47,925 nt of DNA from a virus: positions 1 to 47,925 of IMG/VR virus record IMGVR_UViG_3300034166_000283. One strand, 5' to 3'. How positions within the stretch are numbered: the first letter of the stretch is position 1; the number at the start of each line of letters is the position of its first letter. Positions 7,339 through 29,008 of the stretch are shown in pieces. A program made the translations under genes and the position numbers. The notes under the pieces were generated by a model. The model did no database searches. It had not been told where the DNA came from and was given only the letters and a program-made list of their open reading frames with translations.

Positions 7339-8007
7339 TTACAGTCCCTTAAGCATTTGAATCATCTCGGGCTGTGGGAAGATATCAATCTTATCCTTAC
7401 GTACTGAGTTGTGCGTATATACTCCTGCGACACCATTCAGTGCATTCATAGATACATCCCACATATCCTCCTCACGATAGTCCAGCGGGATATCATAAAT
7501 CTCATTCCAGTACTTCAAGAGATTCTCAACACTGCGAATCTGCTCATCGGTGTATCTGTGGAAGTGGATATGCTTCTTGTACGGGGAATCAAGGGTACAT
7601 ACATCCTCCTTGGCCACCTCACGATTGACGTAGTTGTAGTACTTACCGCCACGCTCCTCTAGCTGTCCCCAAGCACAAATCTCAATACCGATAGAAATCT
7701 TATCGAGCACCTTGTGTGGGACACCGTACCCCTTGAAGATTTCAGCCTTAGCACCTAAGTGGTAGGCCCAGTACTTAGATGGGAATCCCTGCACGATGCG
7801 TCCATCTCCTTCCTTAGCTCCCTTTCCGCTGATACAAACACACGTTGCGATACGACCTCTTGAGTCGGTATCCCACTGCTTGAATGTAGATACCCCACTT
7901 GAGTTACCTGCGGTGTGGTGTAGGTAAATCTGCTTCTTCGGAGCAGCCTCCTTGATGTACTCGGTAGGTGAAAACTCTACCTGCAAGATGTCCTTGAGAA
8001 ATTCCAT
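7339..8007 (-). CDS. N-acetylmuramoyl-L-alanine amidase (endolysin)
   Basis: A 222-residue Amidase_2 (T7 lysozyme-like) enzyme that cleaves the MurNAc to L-Ala bond in peptidoglycan. The zinc site is visible: H30-H31 in YLHHTAGN, H199 in GVYTHNSVRKD, and D208 (KIDIFPQ) at the place where T7 lysozyme has Cys. K206 matches the catalytic lysine position. There is no signal peptide or membrane segment, so export would need a holin or another route. It is the first gene of the left arm; a TAnnTTTG box lies four bases upstream of its ATG (8012-8019). A second wall enzyme is encoded at 13962-14510. Confidence 0.92.
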   Translation of the reverse strand: MEFLKDILQVEFSPTEYIKEAAPKKQIYLHHTAGNSSGVSTFKQWDTDSRGRIATCVCISGKGAKEGDGRIVQGFPSKYWAYHLGAKAEIFKGYGVPHKVLDKISIGIEICAWGQLEERGGKYYNYVNREVAKEDVCTLDSPYKKHIHFHRYTDEQIRSVENLLKYWNEIYDIPLDYREEDMWDVSMNALNGVAGVYTHNSVRKDKIDIFPQPEMIQMLKGL

Positions 8008-10193: not shown

Positions 10194-11717
10194 ATGAGAG
10201 TTACCAATATCGTATCAGGCCGTCAGATTGAAATCCGCCGCTCTTACTACAACGAGCAGTTCAACTTCTACTTCGGTATCAACAACGACTTCTTTGTGTA
10301 CACCTACGCCAACAACGAAGGTGAACTTAACCGCACTCGTTTCCCTCGCGCACTCAACGCCGCTGAGTGGGGCATCGACCTTCGTACGGGCACTCACTCG
10401 TCAGCAACATTCGAACTGCGCGGTCAACAAATTCTGCGAGGTCGCTACTTCCGTAGCGAGCAGGTATCTGAGCAACGCATCTTAGGTATTCCGCACGTTA
10501 CGCTAACTAATGATGAGAAGGCCAACTTCGCTGTTCGTGTGGCAGAGTCAAGCGGACACAACTCAAACGTGTTTGTATCACTGCTCATCGGGGAAGTACT
10601 GCATACAACTGACCTTGTCGTTCGTAATTACTCAACTACTTCGGCGAAGTTCTACGATGCGAACGGAGTGTCTCACGTGCTAAATTTCCAAGACAACGAG
10701 TACGGCCACGTTATGTCTGCAATTCGTGAAGGTCGCACTGAGTACTTAACAGGTCGCGACCTGTTAGGCAATACGTCAATCTTCGCCAACGCTGAGATTC
10801 AGGAGCGCTTCGGTGCAGCCCCTGAACTTAGCGGTTACCACGGCCCATCACGCAACACCGAAATCTTCAACGATTCATCAGTTGAGTGGTTCGTAGGTTT
10901 CGAGGTCGAGAAGGAGGACCTGAATGTTCGCAACCGCTGCGCTCGTGCTAACTGCAACTTGGGTGACGGATGGATTGCAGAACGCGACGGCTCACTCGAT
11001 TCATCGACAGGTGTCGAGGTCGTGTCACCTGTACTCAACCTGTTCGATACGAAGACATTGTTCGAGCAGTTCGAGAAGTACGATTGGGTTATGAACGCAG
11101 AGTACTCACGCCGCTGTGGTGGCCACATCACCATCAGCCGTCGTGGAATTTCAGCCGATGACCTCGTCGACAAGTTGGCTCCGTTCGTGCCTATGCTTTT
11201 CTCGCTATACGAAGGCCGCCTGTCCAATCAGTACAGCGGAGTTCAGAGCAAGGACGAAATCAAGCGAGGTTCACGCCGCGCCATCAACAACTGCTCACGT
11301 GCATACAATAACCGCAAGGAGGCAGTTGAGATTCGCATCTTCAGCGCAGTATCTACGCTCGAGTCAATTAAGTTCCGCACGAAGTTGGTTCAGTGGATAT
11401 GCGCTCACATCGACAAGGGCACGTTCACCACGTTCACTCAGGTGGCCGATGCTATGTTCAACGACAAGAAGTTGAACAAGTTACTTCGTCAGCAGTACAG
11501 CGCTGAGAAGTTAGCACGTAAGCAGGCACTCACCTACGTGTTCGGCGGATGTCTCGAAGGTCAGTCACCGAGCGAGTTTCTCACCGATGCTGACAACTAC
11601 GACCGCACCATCGAGCGTATGAAGCGAGCCTACGACAGCGTACAGGGCTACGTTCGCCGCGAGGTCGAGAGCAAGTTCGGTACTTACTCAGTCAATAAGG
11701 CCGCAGGTAAGTTGTAA
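10194..11717 (+). CDS. amidoligase family protein (Amidoligase_2-like), 507 aa
   Basis: Residues 1-225 form an N-terminal region I do not recognise. Residues 230-430 carry the Amidoligase_2 pattern of the GCS/glutamine-synthetase-like COOH-NH2 ligase fold: GFEVEKED, then WIAERDGSL and TGVEVVSPVL, then CGGHITISRRG near 308, then SRAYNNRKEAVEIRIFSAVS near 375. Such enzymes are thought to form ATP-dependent amide bonds between a carboxylate and an amine, often on peptides; the substrate is unknown here. A class II glutamine amidotransferase and an AIG2/GGCT-like protein, typical companions, are encoded downstream. The gene and its 66-residue follower are bracketed by two hammerhead ribozymes. 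Confidence 0.82.
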   Translation: MRVTNIVSGRQIEIRRSYYNEQFNFYFGINNDFFVYTYANNEGELNRTRFPRALNAAEWGIDLRTGTHSSATFELRGQQILRGRYFRSEQVSEQRILGIPHVTLTNDEKANFAVRVAESSGHNSNVFVSLLIGEVLHTTDLVVRNYSTTSAKFYDANGVSHVLNFQDNEYGHVMSAIREGRTEYLTGRDLLGNTSIFANAEIQERFGAAPELSGYHGPSRNTEIFNDSSVEWFVGFEVEKEDLNVRNRCARANCNLGDGWIAERDGSLDSSTGVEVVSPVLNLFDTKTLFEQFEKYDWVMNAEYSRRCGGHITISRRGISADDLVDKLAPFVPMLFSLYEGRLSNQYSGVQSKDEIKRGSRRAINNCSRAYNNRKEAVEIRIFSAVSTLESIKFRTKLVQWICAHIDKGTFTTFTQVADAMFNDKKLNKLLRQQYSAEKLARKQALTYVFGGCLEGQSPSEFLTDADNYDRTIERMKRAYDSVQGYVRREVESKFGTYSVNKAAGKL

Positions 11718-11725
11718 GATGTCCC

Positions 11726-11781
11726 CTCCGTGTAAGGGTGGTTAAGGTGAGCAGGCGTTGCACGGAGCGCCCTGCTTTTTT
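11726..11781 (+). terminator. terminator/attenuator after amidoligase
   Basis: AGCAGG (11750-11755) pairs with CCTGCT (11771-11776), extended by CG/CG, followed by six T. The loop sequence CACGGAG (11761-11767) also complements CTCCGTG (11726-11732) upstream, so a pseudoknot or an alternative fold is possible. Genes continue in the same direction without an obvious new promoter, which suggests partial termination. Confidence 0.65.
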
Positions 11782-11800
11782 CACTATCACGAATCAAATT

Positions 11801-12001
11801 ATGAAACACGAACTAAACGAAATGATGCGAGCCTACGAAAACTACCTGAGTAAGGTATCGAGGTTCATCGAAGCAACCGACGAAACCGAACGCTACAAGT
11901 TGATTGCGTTCGATATAATCGAGCGGCAAAGTATCGACCTCGAAGAAAACTTGGAGGCCGCATACGAAACGCTAACGCAATATCTAGAAGAACGAGGTTA
12001 A
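11801..12001 (+). CDS. hypothetical helical protein, 66 aa
   Basis: ATG at 11801 gives MKHELNEMMRAYENYLSKVS and an all-helical, acidic protein. The longer frame from 11738 runs through the terminator hairpin and is rejected. Its TAA stop lies in stem I of the second hammerhead. Function unknown; it is confined with the amidoligase between the two ribozymes. Confidence 0.7.
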   Translation: MKHELNEMMRAYENYLSKVSRFIEATDETERYKLIAFDIIERQSIDLEENLEAAYETLTQYLEERG

Positions 12002-12046
12002 CTGACGATGGCTTGAGTAGCCGAAACGCTGTGAAGCGTCTTAACC
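11996..12046 (+). ncRNA. hammerhead ribozyme 2 (type I)
   Basis: Same plan as copy 1. Stem I GGTTAA (11996-12001) with TTAACC (12041-12046); core CTGACGA (12002-12008, the CUGANGA consensus) and GAAA (12023-12026); stem II GGC/GCC (12010-12012, 12020-12022) after one extra T; stem III CGCT-GTGA-AGCG (12027-12038); then TC, with predicted cleavage after C12040. Stem III differs from copy 1 (CGTC/GACG) by paired changes that keep all four base pairs, good evidence for selection on structure. Confidence 0.85.
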
Positions 12047-12060
12047 ATAAACTAATTAAG

Positions 12061-12462
12061 ATGAACGCTTACAAATTCACCCTTACAATCACAAATTCTA
12101 ACACCTTCATTATTAACGCAGAAAACTATAAGGAGGCGATGAAACTTGCTTACGACAATGGTTTTGCAGATAGAAATGCAGTTAAAGACCTTTGCGTTCC
12201 AACCGAAGTTTACTCAGAACTAACTTGTACTGAAAGCGAAACACCTGAGGGACTAATTCGTGTTTGGACATATTTTAACGCATCGGAAGAAACAGAGATA
12301 GAAGAATTCACGAGTGAGTGGTCTACGTTATTAGGTACGGAAGTCACTTACGACCTCGACCTATCCAACACCGATGAAGATTCTTGGTACTGCGAAACAT
12401 TCGTAACGCAAGCGCAAATCGATGAGTTCAATATGAGCGAAGATTGGTTCACCATTCAATAA
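12061..12462 (+). CDS. hypothetical acidic protein, 133 aa
   Basis: Starts MNAYKFTLTITNSNTFIINA at 12061, fifteen bases after the ribozyme; a longer frame from 12013 would translate the ribozyme itself and is rejected. The N-terminal 50 residues look like a beta-beta-alpha unit (NAENYKEAMKLAYDNGF), the rest is acidic with several W/Y. No family recognised. Confidence 0.75.
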   Translation: MNAYKFTLTITNSNTFIINAENYKEAMKLAYDNGFADRNAVKDLCVPTEVYSELTCTESETPEGLIRVWTYFNASEETEIEEFTSEWSTLLGTEVTYDLDLSNTDEDSWYCETFVTQAQIDEFNMSEDWFTIQ

Positions 12463-12481
12463 TCAGTAAAAAAAAATTAAG

Positions 12482-12604
12482 ATGTACGAACTATCTATTT
12501 CAATCGCACCTACCTACGGCATACTAATCGGAGCCGCAGGTTCAATCGCCGTCGTTATCGTGTCGGCAGTTTTGTCAACCATTCAATTCAAGCAAAATGT
12601 TTAA
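12482..12604 (+). CDS. tiny membrane protein, 40 aa
   Basis: MYELSISIAPTYGILIGAAG followed by SIAVVIVSAVLSTIQFKQNV: a single hydrophobic helix covers most of the protein. It overlaps the next start by eight bases. Small one-helix phage proteins can act as holin accessories; no specific evidence here. Confidence 0.55.
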   Translation: MYELSISIAPTYGILIGAAGSIAVVIVSAVLSTIQFKQNV

Positions 12605-12758
12605 AGATATTTTTCTACCACCACCTACTACTTTATTCAAGGTATTCGCACACTACGGAGGCGAGTATCCGTCACGAGTTATGCTGTTCAAGAGTTATGA
12701 GTCAGCAGTTCAGTTCGCACAAGGTGCAGAACAATACGAAATCATTCAAGTAAAATAA
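12597..12758 (+). CDS. hypothetical protein, 53 aa
   Basis: MFKDIFLPPPTTLFKVFAHY opening, then a basic/aromatic middle and EQYEIIQVK end, likely a compact beta-alpha-beta fold. Embedded between two overlapping or adjacent genes (next ATG two bases after its stop). Function unknown. Confidence 0.6.
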   Translation: MFKDIFLPPPTTLFKVFAHYGGEYPSRVMLFKSYESAVQFAQGAEQYEIIQVK

Positions 12759-12760
12759 TT

Positions 12761-12961
12761 ATGAGCCAAATCGACTTAATCATTCAGTACGAAAGCGGAG
12801 AACTTGACGACCAACAGGTCGTGTTCTTATTTGCCGACCTCGTCCGCACAGGACAGGCTTGGATTCTACAGGGCCACTACGGCCGCACTGCTCAACGACT
12901 AATTGAGGCAGGATGGATTGACAAAAAAGGTAATGTATCACTTGAAGTATTTGAACTATGA
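12761..12961 (+). CDS. conserved small phage protein (DUF7417-like), 66 aa
   Basis: YESGELDDQQVVFLFADLVR, then TGQAWILQGHYGRTAQRLIE, matches a short family I recall from many tailed phages (acidic ESGELxxxE..xLF..L, then W.LQG.YGR.A..LI). Function of that family is not known to me; family number is from memory. Overlaps the next gene by four bases. Confidence 0.75.
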   Translation: MSQIDLIIQYESGELDDQQVVFLFADLVRTGQAWILQGHYGRTAQRLIEAGWIDKKGNVSLEVFEL

Positions 12962-13146
12962 ACTTAGAAAACGATAAATCATTCTTTCGTGCAGGTATGT
13001 ACCTGTCGACAATTATGCTCGTGATTGGCACAACGGCACGTATCACGCAAGGCCACCCAAGCGAGTCCACAGGAACGCTTATAGTGGGTGGCATCTTAAT
13101 CTTCCTAATCTCAGCCTTCGGCTACATCGTTAACTACAACAAATAA
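12958..13146 (+). CDS. small two-helix membrane protein, 62 aa
   Basis: Two hydrophobic segments (about 14-30, GMYLSTIMLVIGTTA, and 40-58, GTLIVGGILIFLISAFGYIV) separated by a short polar loop. The layout suits a class II holin-like protein, but this is not diagnostic. It lies two genes upstream of the membrane-anchored glucosaminidase. ATG overlaps the preceding stop. Confidence 0.7.
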   Translation: MNLENDKSFFRAGMYLSTIMLVIGTTARITQGHPSESTGTLIVGGILIFLISAFGYIVNYNK

Positions 13147-13158
13147 TCTATTTCAATT

Positions 13159-13962
13159 ATGTGTATTGCAATTGTAAACCAACCAAACTACTTCATACCT
13201 AAGCAACAACTAAAGAATGCTTGGGACAACAACAACCACGGAGCAGGTATCGCCTACGTCGACAACGGCAGGGTTATGACCTACCACGAGCCGTATAGTT
13301 TCGAGGACTTCTTCGAGGAGTACGAGTTCATTCGTGAATTGACTGACACGCCCATACTGATTCACTTCCGCATCGCCACGCACGGCAAAGGCATCGATAT
13401 GCTCCACCCGCACAGCGTAACCGAAGGTCGTGTATCTCTGATTCACAACGGAGTTATCAGCGGTCTCGGCAACACTATCGTGAGCGACACTCGTGAGTTC
13501 GCAGAAATGCTCAGTAAGTTCTACCCTGACAACGTCGACTTCATCGACCACGTAGGCATCGAGGCTATGGCCCTCGCACTACTCGGTAAATCCAACAAGG
13601 TCGCGTTACTCGATTGGCGCGGTGAGGTTCGTATCCTCAACGCACACTTGGGTCACTACGACGATTACGGCAATTGGTTCAGTAACACATCGTACAAGCA
13701 GTTGAATACCTACGTATGGGAGGGGAGCAAGAAGGTCTACAAAAGCCTTACGAAAAGCGCTGTCAAAAACGCTTACCCTGCTCAGCCGACTATTTGGGAT
13801 TCAGAACGTAAGGTCGCTGTGCCGGCAATACCTAAGGCTCCCGCGTCAGATTGGCTCGACGAGGATTGGGATGACGAACCATCGTACAAATGGAACGCAT
13901 CACGTGACGAGTTACGTAGCGAGACATTCAGTGCATTCCTTGACGACGACGGACAAATCTAA
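13159..13962 (+). CDS. class II glutamine amidotransferase (Ntn hydrolase), 267 aa
   Basis: Begins MCIAIVNQPN, so removal of Met exposes Cys2, the nucleophile of Ntn-type GATases. GAGIAYVDNGRV, LIHFRIATHG and SLIHNGVISG match the conserved GAG, HxRxATxG and HNG elements of GATase type II. The enzyme should release ammonia from glutamine (or hydrolyse a related amide). It lacks an attached synthase domain; the last 70 residues are a W/D-rich tail. The amidoligase 1.4 kb upstream is a plausible ammonia acceptor partner. Its stop overlaps the next ATG (TAATG). Confidence 0.88.
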   Translation: MCIAIVNQPNYFIPKQQLKNAWDNNNHGAGIAYVDNGRVMTYHEPYSFEDFFEEYEFIRELTDTPILIHFRIATHGKGIDMLHPHSVTEGRVSLIHNGVISGLGNTIVSDTREFAEMLSKFYPDNVDFIDHVGIEAMALALLGKSNKVALLDWRGEVRILNAHLGHYDDYGNWFSNTSYKQLNTYVWEGSKKVYKSLTKSAVKNAYPAQPTIWDSERKVAVPAIPKAPASDWLDEDWDDEPSYKWNASRDELRSETFSAFLDDDGQI

Positions 13963-14510
13963 TGTTGTACAAGTATGACAAGGTGAACCTCGTGTTTCGC
14001 CCTATCGTAACCACAAGAGGAGTCGCTTCGGGATTGGCCTTAGCGACTGCCCTCTTTGGTTTCGGCCTTTATGGAGTTGACAACGTAGACGAACGTATCT
14101 ACGAGAGCATACTTAACGTGAACGTGACGGATGCCGCATTCACGGAAGACCGACTGATTGAGAAATTCAAGCAGTTAAACATCAAGTACCCGCACATCGC
14201 ATTGGCTCAGGCTAAGTTAGAGAGCGGTAACTTCAGGTCGGACATCTTCAGCGAGAACAACAACCTGTTCGGTATGAAACAGGCACGTGTTCGTGTGAAC
14301 TTGGCCGCAGGTACGAAACGTGGGCACGCATACTATGCGACGTGGGAGGACAGCGTCCTCGACTACGCGTATTGGTGCGCTACATATGCAAGCAGTTGCA
14401 GAAGCGAAGACGAGTTCTACGCCCTGCTATCACGTTACGCAGAGGATTCACTCTACGAAACGAAACTTCGCGAGGTCATCGAGCGCGACAGCCTGCGCGA
14501 ACTTTTTTAG
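13962..14510 (+). CDS. membrane-anchored glucosaminidase-like wall hydrolase, 182 aa
   Basis: A hydrophobic segment at about 17-38 (TTRGVASGLALATALFGFGL) suggests a signal anchor. Residues 75-165 match the GH73/FlgJ-like lysozyme superfamily: HIALAQAKLESGNFRSDIFS with the catalytic Glu in KLESG, then NNNLFGMKQARVR and AYYATWEDSVLDYAYW. It likely cuts glycan strands, for entry or lysis. It is transcribed with early genes rather than next to the amidase, which hints at a role other than final lysis. Confidence 0.82.
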   Translation: MLYKYDKVNLVFRPIVTTRGVASGLALATALFGFGLYGVDNVDERIYESILNVNVTDAAFTEDRLIEKFKQLNIKYPHIALAQAKLESGNFRSDIFSENNNLFGMKQARVRVNLAAGTKRGHAYYATWEDSVLDYAYWCATYASSCRSEDEFYALLSRYAEDSLYETKLREVIERDSLRELF

Positions 14511-14564
14511 CGTTCACTATCATCGAGAGCATTCGAAACGCAAAACTTCTAAACTTCACTAATT

Positions 14565-14744
14565 ATGGAAAGTAAATTCATCAAAACATCAGTTGTGTAC
14601 GTATCCAAACTTGGATTCAAGACACCCGCCCTACTCGTTGACATCAAGACCGACAATCGTTGCCTCGGCAACCATCGTGTCAGGATTATCGACGCATACG
14701 GCAAAAGCAAATTCACTCCAATTCGTAACATCCAATTCGTATGA
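14565..14744 (+). CDS. hypothetical protein, 59 aa
   Basis: ATG 14565 to TGA 14742. Beta-rich basic protein beginning MESKFIKTSVVYVSKLGFKT, with paired strands (ALLVDIKTDNR, HRVRIIDAYG). The stop overlaps the next start (ATGA at 14741). Function unknown. Confidence 0.65.
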   Translation: MESKFIKTSVVYVSKLGFKTPALLVDIKTDNRCLGNHRVRIIDAYGKSKFTPIRNIQFV

Positions 14745-14923
14745 CCTACAACCAAGATATGATTATCTACCTACAGCAACGCATCCAAGCGCTGTCTAAC
14801 GAGGTAGAAGAACGAGGCAAGCAGTTGAATAAACTGCAAGAGAGATGCGACTATCTCGAGGCTGAACGTCAACACTTACTTGACCAACTGCTCGATAAGC
14901 CGTACGTGACTACGTTACGTTGA
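14741..14923 (+). CDS. coiled-coil protein, 60 aa
   Basis: Nearly the whole protein (residues 6-50) shows heptads: IIYLQQRIQALSNEVEERGK and LNKLQERCDYLEAERQHLLD. Probably an oligomerising or adaptor peptide. Coupled to the preceding gene by ATGA. Confidence 0.65.
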   Translation: MTYNQDMIIYLQQRIQALSNEVEERGKQLNKLQERCDYLEAERQHLLDQLLDKPYVTTLR

Positions 14924-14949
14924 GTTATCAACACTTGTTTACAAAGCAT

Positions 14950-15085
14950 TGATTGTCTCACTAACGAGCGCTAACTTCGCCCTATCGGCTTTGCCGTAAC
15001 AGACAACACGATAAGCGGCTATGGGGGCTTTGAAGGGCCCCCTCGCCGCCGACTCGGTAAGACGAACGACTACTCGGTAGTATAC
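14950..15085 (+). ncRNA. candidate GC-rich structured RNA
   Basis: This 216-base gap (14924-15139) has no gene but strong + strand helices: TTGTCT/AGACAA (14953-14958, 15001-15006), CGGC-TTT-GCCG (14986-14996), nested GCGGC/GCCGC (15015-15019, 15045-15049) around GGGGGC/GCCCCC (15023-15028, 15037-15042), and CTAC-TCG-GTAG (15070-15080). The nested hairpin has no T tract, so it is not a simple terminator. GC content is well above the flanking genes. Family not recognised. Confidence 0.5.
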
Positions 15086-15139
15086 GAGCGCAATACAGGC
15101 GCAATGTGTCAAATAAACAAATAGTGTAATTAACTGAAA

Positions 15140-15283
15140 ATGAGCACAAAAGAGTTACGAGAGCAGTTTATGCGTATTGCAACTGCTCGTCTAAAGAGCG
15201 ACTATCCGTTCCTGCCTCAACGCATAGCGGTGGCCGCATCAATGTATCGCAGATGGTATGAACGTAAAAACAACACGCAATGA
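15140..15283 (+). CDS. small basic protein, 47 aa
   Basis: MSTKELREQFMRIATARLKS followed by DYPFLPQRIAVAASMYRRWY: an alpha-helical basic protein. Its TGA overlaps the next ATG in an ATGA junction. Function unknown. Confidence 0.6.
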   Translation: MSTKELREQFMRIATARLKSDYPFLPQRIAVAASMYRRWYERKNNTQ

Positions 15284-15519
15284 CAACAGAAGTAGGATAC
15301 CAAGAGTATAGCGTAAAACAGGATTGCCTTCATTTCAACCAACTGCATAATGGAAAACTTAACCACATCAAAAGAAAAGATTGGGCAGTTATTGGACTAT
15401 GCACAATTGATGCATCAATGCATATCGCAATGTATTGTGATGATGTAAAGAGCAGAAAAGGATATTTTGATATTAGAGATGTCAAGATTGCATACGAACT
15501 ATATAAAGACATCAAATAA
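15280..15519 (+). CDS. hypothetical protein, 79 aa
   Basis: Mixed alpha/beta protein (KRKDWAVIGLCTIDASMHIA, then YFDIRDVKIAYELYKDIK). A+T content rises from here to about 16800 compared with the upstream genes, hinting at a separately acquired cassette. Function unknown. Confidence 0.7.
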   Translation: MTTEVGYQEYSVKQDCLHFNQLHNGKLNHIKRKDWAVIGLCTIDASMHIAMYCDDVKSRKGYFDIRDVKIAYELYKDIK

Positions 15520-15532
15520 TTCTAATTGAGCA

Positions 15533-15712
15533 ATGAAAATAGAACTAACAATGACCGAGCTGTTGCTAATCGTTGATATGATTAAGAACGGCACTGAGCA
15601 AGACAACGAGGGGGATGACTTCTACCTGATGCAAGAGTTCCTTGATGGAGATTTGCATCATAAGTGCACCAAATGCAACGCAACGATGGATAAAACCACC
15701 AAAGTGAAATGA
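15533..15712 (+). CDS. hypothetical protein with a CxxC pair, 59 aa
   Basis: ATG 15533 to TGA 15710. Helical acidic N-terminus (MKIELTMTELLLIVDMIKNG) and a C-terminal HHKCTKCNATM, a possible half zinc site. ATGA overlap with the next gene. Function unknown. Confidence 0.65.
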   Translation: MKIELTMTELLLIVDMIKNGTEQDNEGDDFYLMQEFLDGDLHHKCTKCNATMDKTTKVK

Positions 15713-15939
15713 AAACACCGATTCAAGAGTTGATGGATGAGTTCGCAAAAAAAGCGGACTCACTACCAGACACATTAGATGCGAACGTGGCATACTTGGC
15801 ATTCCAAGAATGCTACGATATGGCAAAGTCAATGCTCAAGAAAGAGAAAGAAGTGATTATGGATGCTTATGACTATGGATTTAGTGACGCTAAAAGCAAT
15901 CACGACCATAACAAACGAATACTACAACGAAACCTTTAA
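15709..15939 (+). CDS. hypothetical helical protein, 76 aa
   Basis: Begins MKTPIQELMDEFAKKADSLP and contains KSMLKKEKEVIMDAYDYGFS, a pattern shared with the 70-residue gene at 16377 (helix, then KEMEKEQ...YGD). The two may be distant paralogues. Function unknown. Confidence 0.7.
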   Translation: MKTPIQELMDEFAKKADSLPDTLDANVAYLAFQECYDMAKSMLKKEKEVIMDAYDYGFSDAKSNHDHNKRILQRNL

Positions 15940-15951
15940 TATCAAAGAGAA

Positions 15952-16134
15952 ATGAAAGAATTTGAAATAAATTGGATTTACGCTTATGAAAGAGTGCCAA
16001 GAATAGAAGACAATGGTTCTTCAAGAGTTCTTGTTAATTGGGTTAACTTAAAATTTGACCACCCATTTTTTGGCACTGACATAATAGATTGTGATGAGGA
16101 CTTGGACTCATACACCATCTTCGGAGAACTATAA
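15952..16134 (+). CDS. hypothetical acidic protein, 60 aa
   Basis: MKEFEINWIYAYERVPRIED, then VLVNWVNLKFDHPFFGTDII and an acidic C-terminus ending YTIFGEL. Preceded by the A/G-rich start context AGAGAA typical of this cassette. Function unknown. Confidence 0.65.
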   Translation: MKEFEINWIYAYERVPRIEDNGSSRVLVNWVNLKFDHPFFGTDIIDCDEDLDSYTIFGEL

Positions 16135-16215
16135 GGGGTCGAATTCGACCCAATCAAACCGAGAAGCCTGATGCGGTTAAATGAGGGCAAACAAAACCAA
16201 TTAAATTTTAGAGAG

Positions 16216-16380
16216 ATGACACAAAAACAAATCAAAGACTTTAAGTTAATTGATGTTGATATAAATGACGGTATAACATTTACATTATTGGTAAATAAGA
16301 ACGAAATAGTACAACATCACTTTCAATTAAATGAAATTTCTAAGATATTTGGAGGTAACAACAGCACCAACGAGAAATGA
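16216..16380 (+). CDS. hypothetical protein, 54 aa
   Basis: MTQKQIKDFKLIDVDINDGI opening, likely a small beta fold with a helix (NEISKIFGG). I chose 16216 because it is preceded by AGAGAG; an in-frame ATG at 16171 would add 15 residues. Its TGA overlaps the next ATG in the word ACGAGAAATGAAA. Confidence 0.6.
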   Translation: MTQKQIKDFKLIDVDINDGITFTLLVNKNEIVQHHFQLNEISKIFGGNNSTNEK

Positions 16381-16589
16381 AACAGACAGCAGTAGAGTGG
16401 TTGTATAACAACCTAAAATCTCACTTTGAACACGATGGAGATTTATTGGAATGCGTGCAAATGTCAATGCAGCAAGCCAAAGAAATGGAGAAGGAGCAGA
16501 TGGTTGACTTCGCTTTCAAGTACGGAGACTTGACCACCCGTGAGATTGCAGATGCTTTTGATAAAGAATACAAAAACAACGAGAAATGA
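16377..16589 (+). CDS. hypothetical helical protein, 70 aa
   Basis: MKQTAVEWLYNNLKSHFEHD followed by SMQQAKEMEKEQMVDFAFKY is a pattern common in flavobacterial phage small proteins (from memory). Mostly helical, acidic C-terminus. Coupled on both sides through ACGAGAAATGA junctions. Function unknown. Confidence 0.72.
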   Translation: MKQTAVEWLYNNLKSHFEHDGDLLECVQMSMQQAKEMEKEQMVDFAFKYGDLTTREIADAFDKEYKNNEK

Positions 16590-16798
16590 AAATAACTGAC
16601 GAAATCAAAAACGAAACATTGGTATGGGTTCTTGCATCAATATCTGATGTAGAATTGCAATCACAATGTGATATAGATGAAATCGTAGTAGAACCTCACG
16701 GTAGAAAATCAATGCCATTGTACGCAAGTAAAGATTGGGTAAAGCGACTAACCAAAAAAGAGGTTAGAGAATACTACAAGGAAATTGAAAACCTTTAA
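16586..16798 (+). CDS. hypothetical protein, 70 aa
   Basis: MKITDEIKNETLVWVLASIS, a DIDEIVVEPHGRK middle and helical VREYYKEIENL end. Last gene of the small-gene cassette before a non-coding stretch with two structured elements. Function unknown. Confidence 0.7.
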   Translation: MKITDEIKNETLVWVLASISDVELQSQCDIDEIVVEPHGRKSMPLYASKDWVKRLTKKEVREYYKEIENL

Positions 16799-16809
16799 CA
16801 CAAATAGAA

Positions 16810-16887
16810 ATGAGAACTCCGCCCGCTTATGGCGCATTAGGTTTCAGCAAGCGGCAAGCTACCGCACTGATTAACGGAGTCTTTTTT
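16810..16887 (+). terminator. terminator-like hairpin overlapping a possible 27-aa peptide gene
   Basis: ACTCCG (16816-16821) pairs with CGGAGT (16875-16880), followed by CTTTTTTC, with CCGCTT/AAGCGG inside: a branched intrinsic terminator. The same DNA is open from ATG 16810 to TAA 16891-16893 and would encode MRTPPAYGALGFSKRQATAL plus INGVFFL. The start context AATAGAAATGA resembles neighbouring real starts. The long, GC-rich loop is unusual for a plain terminator. Confidence 0.5.
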
Positions 16888-16909
16888 CTTTAACGCCAAA
16901 TGAAATGAG

Positions 16910-17033
16910 GGAGTGGTGAGTGAAGCTGTAGTTAGCACACCACTGATAAAGGTGACTATACTGAAAAAGGGTTTAGACTAAGTATAGGTGAAATCAGGCT
17001 AACCAGAAACCTTGAGAGACCCGAAGCCACTCC
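16910..17033 (+). ncRNA. candidate pseudoknotted structured RNA, 124 nt
   Basis: Closed by GGAGTGG/CCACTCC (16910-16916, 17027-17033). Inside lie GTTAGC/GCTAAC, CTGAT/ATCAG and CTATACT/AGTATAG, four helices that stack into one long arm ending in a loop containing GGGTTT. That loop can pair with AAACC or GACCC in the 3' strand, giving a pseudoknot. No start codon with a good frame fits. It lies 35 bases before the 156-residue gene and could be a leader element (riboswitch-like) or a free RNA. Family not recognised. Confidence 0.55.
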
Positions 17034-17068
17034 TTCTATTTCATATCCAATAAATCATTTACAACCCT

Positions 17069-17539
17069 ATGAACAACTTTAGTTTCCTTAAGATATACAA
17101 CTCACCGTTCAAGCGGCCACGTATAAACATATACTTCGGTAAGATTGTCGTAGGTACTCCGTACTTCCCCCCTCGCCGCAAGGTCAAGTCTAAGACGAAA
17201 GATGGATGGATTGAGTTCAAACCAAAGTACTTCGGATTTGACTTCGTTGACCTTGGTTGGAAGACCAAATGGAGCGACACCGACTATCGCCACGAGTGGA
17301 ATCCAAGATGGTCGTTCGTGTTCTGGAAGTGGCAGCTTGCCGTCATCTTCTCTTCTCCAGCATTAGACTCTCTCTCTGCCTATTGGGAGGCTTGGCTGTA
17401 CTACAGATACGACACGGTTGGAACGATGGAACAGCGAGTGGCTCAGTGCAAAGAAAAAAACCCGATGAGTTCAACTAGTTATCCAAGCCTCAAACACACG
17501 AATCACTACGATGAAATACTTAAAAATAAGTACCTATGA
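17069..17539 (+). CDS. conserved Bacteroidota-phage protein, 156 aa
   Basis: Contains INIYFGKIVVGTPYFPPRRK, FDFVDLGWKTKWSDTDYRHE and WSFVFWKWQLAVIF, an aromatic-rich pattern I recognise from Bacteroidota phage genomes, with no known role. Soluble, beta-rich, with a Pro/Ser-rich C-terminus. It overlaps the phosphoesterase start by four bases. Confidence 0.8.
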   Translation: MNNFSFLKIYNSPFKRPRINIYFGKIVVGTPYFPPRRKVKSKTKDGWIEFKPKYFGFDFVDLGWKTKWSDTDYRHEWNPRWSFVFWKWQLAVIFSSPALDSLSAYWEAWLYYRYDTVGTMEQRVAQCKEKNPMSSTSYPSLKHTNHYDEILKNKYL

Positions 17540-18288
17540 AAACACTAATCTTAGGGGACACCCACGGACGCACCAACTGGAAGCAAGCGATTGACGCACA
17601 CCAAGACGCAGGGCGTATCATCTTTATGGGTGACTACTTTGATTCGTTTGACATCAGCGGTGTTGAGCAGTTGCACAACTTCAATGAAATCATTCGCTTC
17701 AAGGAGTCCACCGACAAGGAGGTTGTGATGCTCATAGGCAACCACGACCACCACTACCTTGATGTAGGCGAGACCTACAGCGGGTACAAGGCCGCACACA
17801 AGTGGGACTTTCAGGATGCACTGACCAAGAATATGCATCACATTCAGATTGCATACTCGCTTGATGAACTGCTGTTCTCTCACGCAGGTGTAAGCCCTAT
17901 GTGGATGGACAACACGTTTGGGTTGGAGTGGAACGTAGACAACTTGGTTGAACTGCTCAACGATAAGTACAAGCATCAGCCAAATGCATTCAACTTCAGC
18001 CAAGACAGCTTTGACCCATACGGAGACTCACCGAAGCAGGGACCGCTTTGGATACGGCCCCGCTCGCTGATGGGATGCAACAGAGGTGAGAACGGCCTGA
18101 AGAAGATGTTCATTCAGATTGTTGGACACACCCAAGTGAAGAATATCTTCGACAGCATCGTAGCCTGCAACAAGTCTATGGGTGGACGATACTACCTTGT
18201 TGACGCTATGGAATCAGGTGGGTACATCACCTACGAGGACGGAGAGATAACGGCACACGAAATCCATATCTCGCCAAATGTGCAGTAA
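17536..18288 (+). CDS. calcineurin-like metallophosphoesterase, 250 aa
   Basis: All five blocks of the family are present in order: GDTHG (residues 7-11), GDYFDS, GNHDHHY, FSHAG and GHTQ, supplying the Asp, His and Asn ligands of a two-metal site. Phage relatives act as protein or nucleotide phosphatases, or nucleases; the substrate cannot be told from sequence. It begins inside the previous stop (ATGA) and its end overlaps an upstream extension of the next frame. Confidence 0.93.
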   Translation: MKTLILGDTHGRTNWKQAIDAHQDAGRIIFMGDYFDSFDISGVEQLHNFNEIIRFKESTDKEVVMLIGNHDHHYLDVGETYSGYKAAHKWDFQDALTKNMHHIQIAYSLDELLFSHAGVSPMWMDNTFGLEWNVDNLVELLNDKYKHQPNAFNFSQDSFDPYGDSPKQGPLWIRPRSLMGCNRGENGLKKMFIQIVGHTQVKNIFDSIVACNKSMGGRYYLVDAMESGGYITYEDGEITAHEIHISPNVQ

Positions 18289-18322
18289 AAACATAGTTTT
18301 GGCAGATTATACAACACAAAAT

Positions 18323-18634
18323 ATGGCAAAGAGACTAACCAAACAAGAGAAGTGGAACAAGGCAAGTGAAGACCTCATCAACAAGATGTTTGAGATTGCT
18401 GGCCACAACGTAACCTATGACGACATCAAGGGACGAACAGATGATTGGTACACAGACTGGACTATGACCGTTGCTCAGGCAGAGCAGTGGAAAGAGTGGG
18501 GTATGGAGTACCTACAAAAGAATATGAAGTTCACGAAGCACTACGCTGAGCTTGAGATGAGAATGTTTAATGTAATGTATGGACTTAAATACAGTGATTG
18601 GTATGGAACCGAAGAACAAACGCCTACTACTTGA
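18323..18634 (+). CDS. hypothetical protein, 103 aa
   Basis: MAKRLTKQEKWNKASEDLIN start, W/Y-rich middle (DDWYTDWTMTVAQAEQWKEW) and a helical C-terminus. The ATG at 18323 is preferred over 18278, which would overlap the phosphoesterase. Resembles a widespread phage family of unknown role. Confidence 0.7.
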   Translation: MAKRLTKQEKWNKASEDLINKMFEIAGHNVTYDDIKGRTDDWYTDWTMTVAQAEQWKEWGMEYLQKNMKFTKHYAELEMRMFNVMYGLKYSDWYGTEEQTPTT

Positions 18635-18755
18635 GCAATACAAGAAGGCACAATACAACCGCAACGTATGCCTATACAGCCGCCGAGACACGGAGGCTAA
18701 GTATTGGGAGGGATACGTCAATGCACTCAGTCTAATCTTAGAAACACAACAATGA
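18603..18755 (+). CDS. small basic protein, 50 aa
   Basis: ATG 18603, overlapping the previous gene by 32 bases; MEPKNKRLLLEQYKKAQYNR then RRDTEAKYWEGYVNALSLIL. Helical, basic. Its TGA overlaps the next ATG (ATGA at 18752). Confidence 0.65.
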   Translation: MEPKNKRLLLEQYKKAQYNRNVCLYSRRDTEAKYWEGYVNALSLILETQQ

Positions 18756-19057
18756 GCGATTCAAGTGTAGAACTAAAGCTCGTGAAGCTACTAATCATTA
18801 TGCAGGTTCACCTTGAACTGCTTGATGAATTGCAGACAACACCGCTATATCGTCACAATATCAAACGAGCAGTTAATAACCTTATTAAGGACCTCGAGGC
18901 ACAGCTTCACATACTATACAAGAATATGAAGACTGACAACGACATTGAGGACGCATACAATGCGGTTAAGCACGGAGTGGAAGTACTTTTGGCGGCAGAT
19001 ACAGATACGCTATACAACATAGGATATCGACCAACCAACAACGCAACCAAAGAATGA
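18752..19057 (+). CDS. conserved helical phage protein, 101 aa
   Basis: ELKLVKLLIIMQVHLELLDE and TTPLYRHNIKRAVNNLIKDL are well-formed helices; this pattern is common in small proteins of Bacteroidota phages (from memory). Probably a helical bundle. The start at 18752 is set by the ATGA junction. Function unknown. Confidence 0.75.
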   Translation: MSDSSVELKLVKLLIIMQVHLELLDELQTTPLYRHNIKRAVNNLIKDLEAQLHILYKNMKTDNDIEDAYNAVKHGVEVLLAADTDTLYNIGYRPTNNATKE

Positions 19058-19431
19058 AACCATCTGACCACCTCGCGTACTTCGCAGAACACCCGATAAT
19101 TAAAAACAAAAACAATAAAAAGAAGAAAATGGACAGCATCATTGACTTAGAGATGAAGGTCGTAGAGTGGGCACACCGCCGAGACCTAGTGAAGCCTGAG
19201 AACGCCAATCGGCAAATGCTCAAGGTGATGGAGGAAGTAGGTGAGCTCGCATCTGCAATTGCAAAAAACAAAGAGGCGGAGACAATCGATGCTATCGGTG
19301 ATGTACTCGTCACTATCATCATCCTGTCGGCTCAGCTAGAACTCAGTCCGTGGGAGTGTTTAGAGCAAGCCTACGGAGAGATTGCCAATCGTAAAGGTCA
19401 AACAATTAACGGAGTATTCGTAAAGGAATGA
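19054..19431 (+). CDS. MazG-like nucleotide pyrophosphohydrolase
   Basis: The domain begins at an internal ATG (19129): DLEMKVVEWAHRRDLVKPEN, MEEVGELASAIAKNK with the EExxE-type metal site, and IDAIGDVLVTIIILSAQ with the second acidic pair (ExxD-like), the MazG four-helix pattern. Such enzymes hydrolyse NTPs or dNTPs and in phages may tune nucleotide pools or ppGpp. The frame extends upstream to 19054, where an ATGA junction couples it to the previous gene; the added 25 residues are lysine-rich. A 100-residue product from 19129 is equally possible. Confidence 0.85.
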   Translation: MKPSDHLAYFAEHPIIKNKNNKKKKMDSIIDLEMKVVEWAHRRDLVKPENANRQMLKVMEEVGELASAIAKNKEAETIDAIGDVLVTIIILSAQLELSPWECLEQAYGEIANRKGQTINGVFVKE

Positions 19432-19637
19432 AGACACCAATGCAAATGATTGAGGATAAACTCAACGAATCAGATGGACGAGAGTTCTATCGTTGGGCTG
19501 TAATCAATCTACCTATGCTCATAAAGAGAGAGAAGATGTTTATCAATGTAGAGAAGAATCGATTATCAAAGAATAACGATGAGAAAGTCGTAATCAGCGG
19601 TAATTATTCTAGAACAATTTGCATTTCTGATAAATAA
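19428..19637 (+). CDS. hypothetical protein, 69 aa
   Basis: MKTPMQMIEDKLNESDGREF followed by a helical, basic middle (LIKREKMFINVEKNRL). ATGA overlap with mazG. The -33 element of the next promoter lies at its 3' end. Function unknown. Confidence 0.7.
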   Translation: MKTPMQMIEDKLNESDGREFYRWAVINLPMLIKREKMFINVEKNRLSKNNDEKVVISGNYSRTICISDK

Positions 19638-19649
19638 TTTATATTTTTG
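19618..19649 (+). promoter_or_regulatory. Bacteroidota-type promoter before the recombination genes
   Basis: TTTG (19618-19621), 20 bases, TATTTTTG (19642-19649). The predicted start lies about 15-20 bases before the ATG at 19673. It would drive the annealing protein, exonuclease and SSB-like genes up to the terminator at 21337. Confidence 0.7.
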
Positions 19650-19672
19650 TTCAAGTAATTCAATTCAAACCT

Positions 19673-20209
19673 ATGTCTAATTACAAATTCAAGACAACCA
19701 ACATAAAGGGTAAGGACTACGTTGAGGTTAACCAACGCGTGCTTTACTTCCGTAACGAACCTAAGTTCGAAGGTTGGACAATCGAGAACGAGCTCGTCGT
19801 AATCGACAGCGACACTTGCATCGTCAAGTCAACCATCAAGGATACGGCAATGCGTGTCGTCGCAAGCGCCCACGCTCAGGAGGACCGCACATCCTCTATG
19901 ATTAACAAGACATCGTATGTAGAGAACTGCGAAACGTCGGCCGTGGGTCGTGCTCTCGCAATGCTTGGCATCGGTATCGAGACTTCAATCGCATCGTCAA
20001 ACGAGGTCGCTATGGCAATCGCTAAGCAGGACGCTCCCGCATCCGAGACGCAGAAAGTTGAAATTCCTAACAACGATGTGTTTCAGTCAGCGATTGACTT
20101 TATGAAGAAGGACGGAACAGCCGCTGGCCTCGAGAAGATTATTGCCAAGTATGGCTCTAAGTTCTCTGACGGGCAGAAAAATGCTCTGTCTAAGTTCGTT
20201 AAGAAGTAA
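19673..20209 (+). CDS. Erf-like single-strand annealing protein, 178 aa
   Basis: The segment SYVENCETSAVGRALAMLGI followed by ETSIASSNEVAMAI is the signature of the Erf/Sak-type recombinases (ENaeTSAigRALa.lGig..IAS..E). Residues 1-100 make the annealing core; the C-terminal third is a separate helical tail (LEKIIAKYGSKFSDGQKNAL) resembling a small DNA- or partner-binding region. It would pair ssDNA during phage recombination with the exonuclease gene that follows; stop and start overlap (TAATG). Confidence 0.85.
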   Translation: MSNYKFKTTNIKGKDYVEVNQRVLYFRNEPKFEGWTIENELVVIDSDTCIVKSTIKDTAMRVVASAHAQEDRTSSMINKTSYVENCETSAVGRALAMLGIGIETSIASSNEVAMAIAKQDAPASETQKVEIPNNDVFQSAIDFMKKDGTAAGLEKIIAKYGSKFSDGQKNALSKFVKK

Positions 20210-21000
20210 TGGAAATCCAGCTTCTTGACGGAAGTACTTGGCATCGTAGCGACTTGCTCTCTGCGATGGCCGATGACGACTTCTACTATGGGTACTTGGG
20301 GAAGGCAGTTCTGTCTTCCTCGAGTCTCAAGAAGATTAACGACTCACCACGTGAGTACGCACGCTACTTGAAGTATGGAGAGGAAGGCGACACGACGGCT
20401 CTTGTCGCAGGCAACCTTATACATACTCTCTTGTTAGAGCCACACCTCCAAGACAACTTCATACCTGTGGAATGTTCCAATAAGAACACGAACATATGGA
20501 AACAAGCAGTTGCCGATAACGAGGGTACGGGCAAGAAGTTGCTTCTTCAGAAGGACTTCGATAATTGCCACTATGTAGTTGATGCACTGCTCAAGAACAA
20601 GATTGTTCAGGGTGCACTCATCGACGCTGATTACGAACTTCCTGAGATTGGTCTACTCTACGGCGTGCCGTTTCGAGCTAAGGCTGATATCAAGAAGAGG
20701 GGTCAAAAGTATATCTATGACCTTAAGACAACATCAAACATCGATGACTTTTACCACAGCGCACGCAAGTATGGTTATGCCGCACAAGCATACATCTACT
20801 GCACTCTGTTTGATGTTCCGTTTGAGAACTTTAAGTTTATCGTTGTAGATAAGAATAAGAAAGACATCGGCGTTTTTTCCGTGTCGGAGACTTTCTTTAT
20901 GTTAGGCAAGCGGTTGGTAGAGCAAGGTGTATCTGATTACATCAAGTTCTTTATCGACGGTGAGGACCTAAACCAATATGTGATTTACGGAGAACTTTAA
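20209..21000 (+). CDS. PD-(D/E)XK exonuclease (RecE/YqaJ-like), 263 aa
   Basis: VLSSSSLKKINDSPREYARY near residue 35 is the N-terminal motif of RecE/PDDEXK exonucleases. The active site reads FRAKADIKKRGQKYIYDLKTT (about 155-175), with D and DxK spaced as in this superfamily, and YGYAAQAYIYC gives the usual QxxxY after it. It would resect 5' ends to expose ssDNA for the Erf-like partner immediately upstream. Ends with a YVIYGEL tail. Confidence 0.88.
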   Translation: MEIQLLDGSTWHRSDLLSAMADDDFYYGYLGKAVLSSSSLKKINDSPREYARYLKYGEEGDTTALVAGNLIHTLLLEPHLQDNFIPVECSNKNTNIWKQAVADNEGTGKKLLLQKDFDNCHYVVDALLKNKIVQGALIDADYELPEIGLLYGVPFRAKADIKKRGQKYIYDLKTTSNIDDFYHSARKYGYAAQAYIYCTLFDVPFENFKFIVVDKNKKDIGVFSVSETFFMLGKRLVEQGVSDYIKFFIDGEDLNQYVIYGEL

Positions 21001-21011
21001 TTCAATTAGTT

Positions 21012-21299
21012 ATGTCAGACAAGACAAAACCCAACTACTTCGGTAGCACTTGGTACAACGAGTACAAAGGAGAATTCAATGGTTACACTCTCTACCTAAC
21101 TGCGGCCGAGCTTCAAGAGGCTGCTCGTTACATCAACGAGGAAAGCGGTAAGGTTAAGATTTTAATCAAGCAAGGTCGCGACCCCAAGAAGCCTTACAGC
21201 GTTATCGAGTCTCCTCAGGAGACCGCAATGCGCCGTCAGAACGCTCAGGCGGCTTCCAACGCTAAACCTACTCCATCACTGAACGACTTGCCGTTCTAA
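21012..21299 (+). CDS. SSB-like small protein with acidic/hydrophobic tip, 95 aa
   Basis: The last residues SLNDLPF match the C-terminal tip of bacterial SSBs (DDxPF), which recruits replication and repair proteins. The body (YNEYKGEFNGYTLYLTAAEL, GKVKILIKQGRDPKKPYSVI) looks beta-rich but I cannot confirm an OB fold. Context after the annealing protein and exonuclease supports an ssDNA-related role. Confidence 0.72.
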   Translation: MSDKTKPNYFGSTWYNEYKGEFNGYTLYLTAAELQEAARYINEESGKVKILIKQGRDPKKPYSVIESPQETAMRRQNAQAASNAKPTPSLNDLPF

Positions 21300-21698
21300 A
21301 TGGAAAAGGCAATCGCGGCACTGCTGTGCTTCGAGTGGGGGCTCGGATTCTTAGAGTCCGGCCCCCTTTTCTTTAAGCACACAACGAGAAACGACGGCCC
21401 AACTCAGACTCAGATAATCTTCGCTAAGATTAGCGACGGTAAGTTTGAGCTAGATGTCAAGCCTGTAGAATATGTAGCTAAGCACTCCGTGGTTGTCATC
21501 CCCGAAAAGAACGGCAACAACGTGGTTCTTGTTGATTCATCCAAGCTGTATGCGGCATTAGACGGATTCTTTGTCGATGCCTCAGCTCTTGGTGAAATGA
21601 TTATGTGGAAAACCGAAATGAGATTTAGCGATGCATCCGATTTATTTTCTAGAGATAGAGGTGTCCTTCAAGAAGGGGAAGCTCAATCAGAGTCGTAA
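21300..21698 (+). CDS. hypothetical protein, 132 aa, with terminator inside its 5' end
   Basis: The frame starts one base after the SSB-like stop and codes a plausible soluble protein (KISDGKFELDVKPVEYVAKH, VVVIPEKNGNNVVLVDSSKL). However, a strong terminator (21337-21373) lies within its first 25 codons, and no in-frame ATG follows until 21598. Either it is read only by read-through or coupled translation, or the 5' part is not coding. Overlaps the next gene by 68 bases. Confidence 0.5.
   Translation: MEKAIAALLCFEWGLGFLESGPLFFKHTTRNDGPTQTQIIFAKISDGKFELDVKPVEYVAKHSVVVIPEKNGNNVVLVDSSKLYAALDGFFVDASALGEMIMWKTEMRFSDASDLFSRDRGVLQEGEAQSES
21337..21373 (+). terminator. intrinsic terminator after the recombination genes
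   Basis: GGGGGC (21337-21342), CGGA, a 9-base loop, TCCG, GCCCCC (21361-21366), then TTTTCTTT. About ten GC-rich pairs and a T tract; one of the strongest terminators in the window. Confidence 0.75.
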
Positions 21699-21870
21699 GG
21701 AGTGGGCAGTGTCAAAGCACGACACTCCATCAGGCATTATGATGCACGACAACAAAACAATCGATAGCCTTCGTGAACGACTGTTCGGTAACAACTACAA
21801 GGGTGACAAATCGCTTGTCATCACTAAAGTATTAGAAAAAAAGATAGTAGGCTATGCCGAGAATAAATAA
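21631..21870 (+). CDS. hypothetical protein, 79 aa
   Basis: IYFLEIEVSFKKGKLNQSRK then HDTPSGIMMHDNKTIDSLRE gives a beta strand pair and a helix. Start uncertain because it overlaps the 132-residue frame. The end overlaps the HTH gene by 17 bases. Function unknown. Confidence 0.6.
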   Translation: MHPIYFLEIEVSFKKGKLNQSRKEWAVSKHDTPSGIMMHDNKTIDSLRERLFGNNYKGDKSLVITKVLEKKIVGYAENK

Positions 21871-22069
21871 CGAAGAAGAAGCCCTAGATATCATTAGGGT
21901 TCTTACTGATGACTTTGGGGTTAGTAAGACTGCTCTTTCCAAAGGGTTACATATAAGTAGAGTGTCTCTAAATAATGTAATCAATGGGAAGACAATCGTA
22001 ACCAAGAAGTTCATCATCCGACTGAACAACCACATTGACAAACTCAAAACAGCAATTAACTATGAATGA
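21854..22069 (+). CDS. small helix-turn-helix protein, 71 aa
   Basis: DFGVSKTALSKGLHISRVSL followed by NNVINGKTIVTKKFIIRLNN fits a Cro/XRE-type HTH: helix 2 (SKTALSKGL), turn, recognition helix (SRVSLNNVINGK). It probably binds DNA as a dimer. It could act on the TGATTATCA repeats or other sites; that link is inference. Overlaps its neighbours by short stretches. Confidence 0.78.
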   Translation: MPRINNEEEALDIIRVLTDDFGVSKTALSKGLHISRVSLNNVINGKTIVTKKFIIRLNNHIDKLKTAINYE

Positions 22070-22490
22070 ATTTATCTACTGGGACGACCCGGGCGATAGC
22101 CAAGATGTCGTTGATAATCAAACAGAGAAGAACAACCTTGTAGCTGTCTACGGTACACTCAAGATTGGTAAAGGCAACCATAGCCTTCTAAGTAGCTCCA
22201 TCTATATGGGGACTGCTCGAACCAAAGACCTAATGCGTCTATGTGTCGTATCTCTCCCATACTTAGTTAGAGGTGAGTCTGAGGAAGGCAAGAATGTACT
22301 TGTTGAACTGTACTATGTTGACGACAGCACTTTAGCATCTCTTGACCGACTTGAGGGACATCCTGTTCACTACAAGCGTGAGATGATGAAGTTTACACCT
22401 GAAGAGTCAATCTTCTCTAACGAAGTAGAGGCTTGGGTGTATATGGTTGACGAACGCTACGATAATAAAAAATACTACGATGAATTCTAG
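22062..22490 (+). CDS. AIG2/gamma-glutamylcyclotransferase-like protein, 142 aa
   Basis: VAVYGTLKIGKGNHSLLSSS matches the VYGTLxxGxxN loop of the GGCT/AIG2 fold. VELYYVDDSTLASLDRLEGH then PVHYKRE matches the catalytic Glu strand (here VELYYV) and the LDRLEGHPxxYxR helix. Such enzymes release gamma-glutamyl groups as 5-oxoproline. Its presence with an amidoligase and a class II amidotransferase suggests a gamma-glutamyl-type modification route. The start at 22062 was preferred over 22035, which overlaps the HTH gene more. Confidence 0.87.
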   Translation: MNEFIYWDDPGDSQDVVDNQTEKNNLVAVYGTLKIGKGNHSLLSSSIYMGTARTKDLMRLCVVSLPYLVRGESEEGKNVLVELYYVDDSTLASLDRLEGHPVHYKREMMKFTPEESIFSNEVEAWVYMVDERYDNKKYYDEF

Positions 22491-26787: not shown

Positions 26788-26798
26788 AAATTAAATTT

Positions 26799-27104
26799 AT
26801 GACAAACAATGAAATTGCGGCCATCGTTTTCAACGAGGTCAAGAACGAGTACGGAGTTACTGCGTTCCAACTGTATAGTAAGACAAGACTTCTCCATATC
26901 CGCGAGTCTCGTCAGGTGTTTTCACATCTTATGCGTAAACATACTGATATGACGCTACTGGAAATAGGTAAGCTCATCAATAGAGACCACTCAACTGTAA
27001 TACATTCTTGCAAGGTAGTGGACTCTGACATCTCATCTAACCAGAAGTTTCGTAAGCGATACGACAGAATTAATAACAACGTAACTGATAAAATCTATGT
27101 CTAA
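26799..27104 (+). CDS. free-standing DnaA domain IV-like protein, 101 aa
   Basis: Residues 50-85 (MTLLEIGKLINRDHSTVIHS then CKVVDSDISS) reproduce the DnaA C-terminal DNA-binding domain signature (LxxIGxxxxxRDHSTVxHA), preceded by two helices. There is no AAA+ domain. It could bind DnaA boxes to guide phage replication or to compete with host DnaA. It lies between nrdB and nrdA and overlaps nrdA by 8 bases. ATG 26799 is preferred to an upstream TTG inside nrdB. Confidence 0.88.
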   Translation: MTNNEIAAIVFNEVKNEYGVTAFQLYSKTRLLHIRESRQVFSHLMRKHTDMTLLEIGKLINRDHSTVIHSCKVVDSDISSNQKFRKRYDRINNNVTDKIYV

Positions 27105-28875: not shown

Positions 28876-29008
28876 ACCTTGTAGTAATCACGCTCGTGAA
28901 CTGGATTGGGCCGAAGAAGAGGAGGCGCTAAATAAGCGTATCGACATCATCGGTCAGAACGGAAACACTGGGGAACACTACCCTGAGTACGAGCAGTACG
29001 ATAAATAG
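28868..29008 (+). CDS. small acidic protein, 46 aa
   Basis: ATG 28868 overlaps the nrdA stop by eight bases. MARPCSNHARELDWAEEEEA, then a polar tail rich in Gly, Asn and Tyr (GEHYPEYEQYDK). Acidic helix plus disordered tail. Function unknown; translational coupling with nrdA supports it. Confidence 0.6.
   Translation: MARPCSNHARELDWAEEEEALNKRIDIIGQNGNTGEHYPEYEQYDK

Follow-up and report, generated by a model that had tools for sequence, protein, structure and literature searches.

A compact amidoligase, glutamine amidotransferase and cyclotransferase set, co-inherited as an accessory module in the early arm of an aquatic phage

Do three enzyme genes that lie in one arm of a phage genome belong together, and if so, what might they do? 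The question is raised by a 47.9-kb stretch of DNA from an aquatic phage (IMG/VR record IMGVR_UViG_3300034166_000283, positions 1 to 47,925; hereafter the window), whose rightward arm, devoted to early functions and replication, carries all three genes, the late arm running in the opposite direction. A first-pass annotation, made from the letters alone, had read them as an Amidoligase_2-like enzyme, a Cys2-type class II glutamine amidotransferase (GATase) and an AIG2/GGCT-like protein, together making a peptide-type modification. All three open reading frames (ORFs) were present as described:

10194..11717, + strand: amidoligase, with a glutamine synthetase (GS)-like fold at residues ~226-445 and a variable N-terminal module at residues 1-225 (AlphaFold model m41cde10bb5e5)
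13159..13962, + strand: class II GATase of 267 aa, Cys2 nucleophile, ATG-TGT start (model m6221f226b29e)
22062..22490, + strand: GGCT/GGACT, AIG2-like cyclotransferase (hereafter GGCT), just 5' of the primase/helicase gene, with its ATG at 22062

The same three proteins are encoded, at 100% identity, in the near-identical complete genome G001 (61,636 bp), which is circular or permuted, since window positions 18190-18316 stand at both of its ends.

The three genes form a functional, co-inherited set. Searching viral contigs with the GATase alone yielded 80 loci, 5 of which are on contigs that start with the GATase itself and are therefore not evaluable. In 74 of the 75 evaluable loci, the GATase is preceded by an amidoligase: 67 were detected by profile, and in 7 more the ORF directly 5' of the GATase matches PF12224 at E 4e-5 to 5e-3, leaving as the single exception a locus (L092) with an unrecognised ORF in that place. 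The gap between the two genes is at most 200 bp in 54 of the 67 profile-detected loci. The reverse, amidoligase-anchored search found a GATase in 67/75, and GGCT is encoded in 29 of the 39 amidoligase-bearing records that are complete or long (at least 45 kb). The chance rate among annotated phages is 29 GATase relatives, 75 GGCT relatives and 1 amidoligase relative per 50,697 records, and the expectation that these families recur together was borne out. In a large sister clade, comprising 19 of the 48 rows of the GATase tree on a single 100/100 branch, GATase and GGCT are one polypeptide; the window's clade has a separate GGCT gene, and the description of the set as "split" is thus correct for the window phage. 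Several phages have the order amidoligase-GATase-amidoligase, as if two ligases shared one ammonia source. Outside phages, an amidoligase-GATase pair whose genes overlap by 16 bp is cargo of a CTnDOT-like conjugative element in Chitinophaga eiseniae, near Prok-E2_D and ThiF (ubiquitin-like conjugation) genes. A seemingly fused amidoligase-GATase ORF in an Atopobiaceae metagenome-assembled genome (L273) was rejected, as comparison with L272 reveals a frameshift joining two frames.

Might three unrelated genes simply have stayed together through phage kinship? The loci do come largely from related ~60-kb phages, in which exo and primase genes are widely shared. As a control, we used a terminase-anchored search that was blind to the cassette and that yielded relatives both with and without it. 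None of the three genes is found in the near-complete records G042-G044 (48-64 kb), even though their terminases are 66-69% identical, nor in five partial records (25-29 kb). On the terminase tree, cassette presence requires at least three changes, and L212, which has the cassette, is sister to L231, which lacks it. The corresponding slot in L231 (1311-3948) holds an AAA ATPase of PHROG 249, which we take to be MoxR-like, and a PHROG 1909 protein, and that in L226 (327-1202) a PHROG 1221 protein. Because cassette-free sisters hold other accessory genes in the slot, the cassette is an accessory module rather than lineage baggage; it fills a variable slot where the early arm begins, a host-takeover site worth mining, and close phages with and without it provide natural controls. 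The control and the swapped slot rule out kinship as the whole explanation, and the GATase-GGCT fusion, the pair on a Bacteroidota conjugative element and the occurrence of the same set in unrelated podoviruses also speak against it; we regard it as very improbable.

Are the active sites intact? The window ligase is a diverged relative of Amidoligase_2 and not a member by Pfam score: it has no match to PF12224 at the curated cut-off, and its match to the PHROG amidoligase is weak (E 0.008). The ligase of phage C75C1 reaches 98.8 bits on PF12224, and a profile comparison of the two ligases gave E 6e-5 with a probability of 65%. Scanning viral contigs by motif, starting from an alignment of three sequences, recovered 78 amidoligase loci; a conserved-motif scan of bacterial genomes recovered no amidoligase relatives. 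In a 56-sequence alignment, 16 positions are invariant (G235, E237, E239, K240, D265, S267, G273, E275, C308, G309, G310, H311, R342, E379, R381, and R395), among them every catalytic-type residue of the ligase, and the Amidoligase_2 pattern (GxExE, DGSL...GxE, CGGH, R, ExR) is present in the window protein together with a GS-like fold. The AlphaFold model is confident over residues ~150-450 and has a GS fold (Foldseek, E 1.9e-4). Foldseek against the PDB gave four matches below E 0.001, all glutamine synthetases, and VIA-align of model residues 226-445 gave Z 10.2 for YbdK, ~10 for GS and 9.3 for GmaS, whereas a profile search of PDB sequences gave no match. Viral structure matches of the model are annotated "Amidoligase enzyme," including proteins of crAss-like phages, phi14:2, tf, and CW02. 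The structural alignment begins with model residue 226 on residue 123 of human GS; supposing a gap-free strand, E237 and E239 would fall on GS E134 and E136, the metal/ATP-site glutamates. Fold, viral neighbours and invariant residues thus uphold the amidoligase call despite the missing Pfam match. As this subfamily falls under the Pfam threshold, such cassettes will be under-counted in environmental phages. The residues ahead of E237 number from 43 to 401 in relatives, and we suggest that this variable N-terminal module picks the target.

The GATase is, by fold and residues, a class II (N-terminal nucleophile, Ntn) enzyme, as first annotated. GATase_6 in Pfam scores it at 17.6 bits, under the cut-off of 27, so that it is not a member of that model by score; nevertheless, C2, R71, T74, G76, N97, G98, and D110 are invariant in 50 homologues, and they correspond to GlmS Cys1, Arg73, Thr76, Gly78, Asn98-Gly99, and Asp123. 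Residues 1-195 are ordered and are followed by a disordered tail of ~70 aa; the predicted local distance difference test (pLDDT) score exceeds 90 across most of residues 1-180. The model aligns with the GlmS glutaminase at Z 14.3 (169 residues, root mean square deviation 3.6) and with EgtC at Z 13.9, and as these match equally, both ammonia donation and gamma-glutamyl hydrolysis are possible; gene adjacency suggests a glutaminase coupled to a synthase. We also considered the conserved C-terminal "EDWDD" tail as a docking motif or substrate, but it is not general: 45 of the 80 non-redundant GATases end instead in a Cys-rich, zinc-ribbon-like tail, which the window's near clade lacks. In bacteria, GATase relatives are rare (20 among 84,980 species genomes).

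The AIG2/GGCT-like assignment is confirmed by PF06094 (E 1.2e-18, 68.3 bits, cut-off 22.8), with a further match to PHROG 2520 (E 9e-22). By sequence alignment, Glu107 of the 151-aa frame (codon at 22353) aligns with the catalytic Glu82 of 3jub, the human GGACT structure. This Glu and the Y, G and L of the YGTL loop are invariant in 33 relatives, and family score, loop and catalytic Glu are all found in the window protein. With co-occurrence across relatives and catalytic residues in the structure models both checked, the first-pass claim is not refuted.

What, then, would the module do? We judge the chances about evenly balanced that it is a compact, early-arm accessory module for glutamine-dependent amide synthesis, with GGCT trimming and a cytoplasmic host target. 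The GS-fold amidoligase would activate a carboxylate with ATP, and the GATase, as the cognate ammonia source, would hydrolyse glutamine via a gamma-glutamyl thioester on Cys2 and pass NH3 to the ligase, the two forming a glutamine-dependent amide synthase whose target would be chosen by the ligase's N-terminal module. GGCT may trim by-products or adducts by turning gamma-glutamyl amides into 5-oxoproline. Early in infection, the module would alter its target, probably a host molecule of the cytoplasm (a peptide, a protein or a precursor of the cell wall), in a way that favours the phage. The amide-synthase reading is supported by gene adjacency, the amidoligase-GATase-amidoligase layout, the GATase-GGCT fusion and the intact active sites; inspection by eye reveals neither a signal peptide nor a membrane segment in the three proteins, which is consistent with a cytoplasmic site. 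We also consider possible, though we lean against it, a distinct, minimal system for amidating proteins or metabolites, in which a single GATase would serve either one GS-fold amidoligase or two interchangeable ones, their N-terminal target modules being swappable. GGCT would then be a fused or detached eraser, and the whole would be exchanged, as one unit, for other host-takeover modules where the early arm begins.

Several points weigh against the amide-synthase reading. EgtC equals GlmS in structural closeness and hydrolyses gamma-glutamyl amides with no synthase involved, which leaves ammonia donation unproven. The N-terminal module of the ligase is poorly modelled. GGCT is encoded 8 kb away and is absent from all six phages in which two amidoligases flank the GATase (G012-G016 and G023; 0/6, versus 29/33 with one amidoligase); it is therefore not obligatory. 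The pattern is suggestive, but a strict rule that a second amidoligase excludes GGCT was not upheld, as Fisher's test gives p 6e-5 on records but there are only ~3 tree transitions (sign test, p 0.25-0.5). Finally, predictions of amidoligase/GATase/GGCT cassettes go back to 2009, and no biochemical or other experimental test of them was found in the literature searched. What stood of the proposed peptide-type modification is that the genes are inherited together, that their active sites are intact and that an amide/gamma-glutamyl chemistry matches the standing prediction; a peptide product stays a proposal.

The same structural matches could also be read as a gamma-glutamyl amine cycle, in which the ligase gamma-glutamylates a small amine (a polyamine or amino sugar) and an EgtC-like GATase and a GGACT-like GGCT remove or remodel the product. 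YbdK, GmaS and EgtC are among the top structural matches, GGCT aligns with GGACT, an enzyme of gamma-glutamylamines, and the GATase-GGCT fusion suggests a common gamma-glutamyl substrate. However, making a bond with one ligase and cutting it with two enzymes would be futile unless further steps followed, none of the window proteins that were scanned was recognised as an oxidase or dehydrogenase, and the ligase's large, variable N-terminal modules suggest a macromolecular substrate; we consider such a cycle unlikely.

The gene that follows the GATase raises a further possibility, namely, that the same enzymes act on peptidoglycan precursor peptides and change the wall so that competing phages cannot superinfect:

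13962-14510, + strand: glucosaminidase (PF01832, E 8e-16) with an N-terminal hydrophobic segment; its start overlaps the GATase stop by 1 bp

Blocking of superinfection through the wall is the published prediction for phiEco32/LUZ24-type cassettes (PMC5498523, PMC10580990, PMC11318856), and the glutamine-dependent amidation of wall precursors has a known precedent in MurT/GatD (PMC3267633). Nevertheless, the glucosaminidase adjoins the GATase in the near clade only and lies 3.9 kb off in others, for which reason we rejected it as a cassette member; the three proteins have no wall-targeting domain, and nothing in the cassette indicates export. GGCT chemistry needs a gamma-glutamyl group with a free alpha-amino group, which the D-Glu of the stem peptide does not offer. 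Action on the wall thus seems to us rather unlikely.

How does the set compare with known systems? The cassette type is already known from other phages; what is new is the form with three genes and a strongly diverged ligase. In podoviruses (phiEco32, LUZ24/PaP3, tf, RIO-1, and others), it has been described as a "peptidoglycan modification cassette" (PMC5498523; UFV-P2 in PMC3890496), and amide/gamma-glutamyl cassettes of this kind were predicted by Iyer et al. in 2009, as cited in PMC10580990 and PMC11318856. In SU10, a phiEco32 relative, ATP-grasp, GATase and YtfP (GGCT) were seen as early products by mass spectrometry, on a sample that was precipitated with polyethylene glycol and not gradient purified (PMC4281155). 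The podovirus cassettes (phiEco32, LUZ24/PaP3, tf, RIO-1, CW02, PSA-HP1, and Bas89) likewise combine an Amidoligase_2-type ligase, a class II GATase and GGCT in the early arm, and there, as in the window phage, GGCT lies closely 5' of primase/helicase. Their GATases, however, are GFAT-like and 486-672 aa long, whereas that of the window is short. Direct tests of the window phage (G000) and of G001 detected neither a PF14395 COOH-NH2 ligase nor a RimK-like ATP-grasp, both of which were detected in the positive controls PaP3, Bas89, and T2S2; the window phage therefore carries a reduced variant and is not a full member of the phiEco32/LUZ24 type, a form that the first-pass annotation overlooked. 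This three-enzyme form is the smallest with all parts, and its reconstitution should be far easier than that of the five-enzyme phiEco32 type.

In the Zobellviridae OM43 phages MEP401/402, amidoligase and GATase of similar size are adjacent (PMC10580990); their GATase is only 35% identical, no GGCT is reported, and they belong to another phage family. Phage C75C1 and Podoviridae ctfjg026 (MW202828) have the amidoligase followed by GATase and GGCT, as in the window phage, and MW202828 also has the terminase in common with it (48% identity); in both, GATase is fused with GGCT into a single polypeptide. The cellular MurT/GatD, GlmS, PuuA/PuuD, and EgtC follow the same logic of glutamine-dependent amidation or of a gamma-glutamyl ligase with a hydrolase, but with other ligase families or another GATase class and no sequence-level membership. 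The window form is thus distinguished by its diverged ligase with a variable N-terminal module and by a GATase and GGCT that are either fused or split.

The window terminase resembles those of Flavobacterium "elemo," Cellulophaga and Azobacteroides phages, the best match being that of MW202828, and this likeness suggests a Bacteroidota host. Between amidoligase and GATase (11738..13146, + strand) lie four small ORFs, kept mainly in the near clade:

11738-12001, + strand: small ORF
12013-12462, + strand: small ORF
12761-12961, + strand: small ORF (DUF7417)
12958-13146, + strand: small ORF

Since amidoligase and GATase adjoin in most relatives, we place these ORFs outside the core. The glucosaminidase is the second wall hydrolase of the window, besides an amidase at 7339-8007 (- strand). 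A GroES-like co-chaperonin is encoded in the late arm (4339-4914, - strand), and both GroEL and GroES are annotated in the relative MW202828. Beside the virion structural genes lies a gene for a 2697-aa protein with no PHROG match (30160-38253, - strand), and class I ribonucleotide reductase genes for NrdB and NrdA (25798-29229, + strand) are followed by a tRNA-Arg(TCT).

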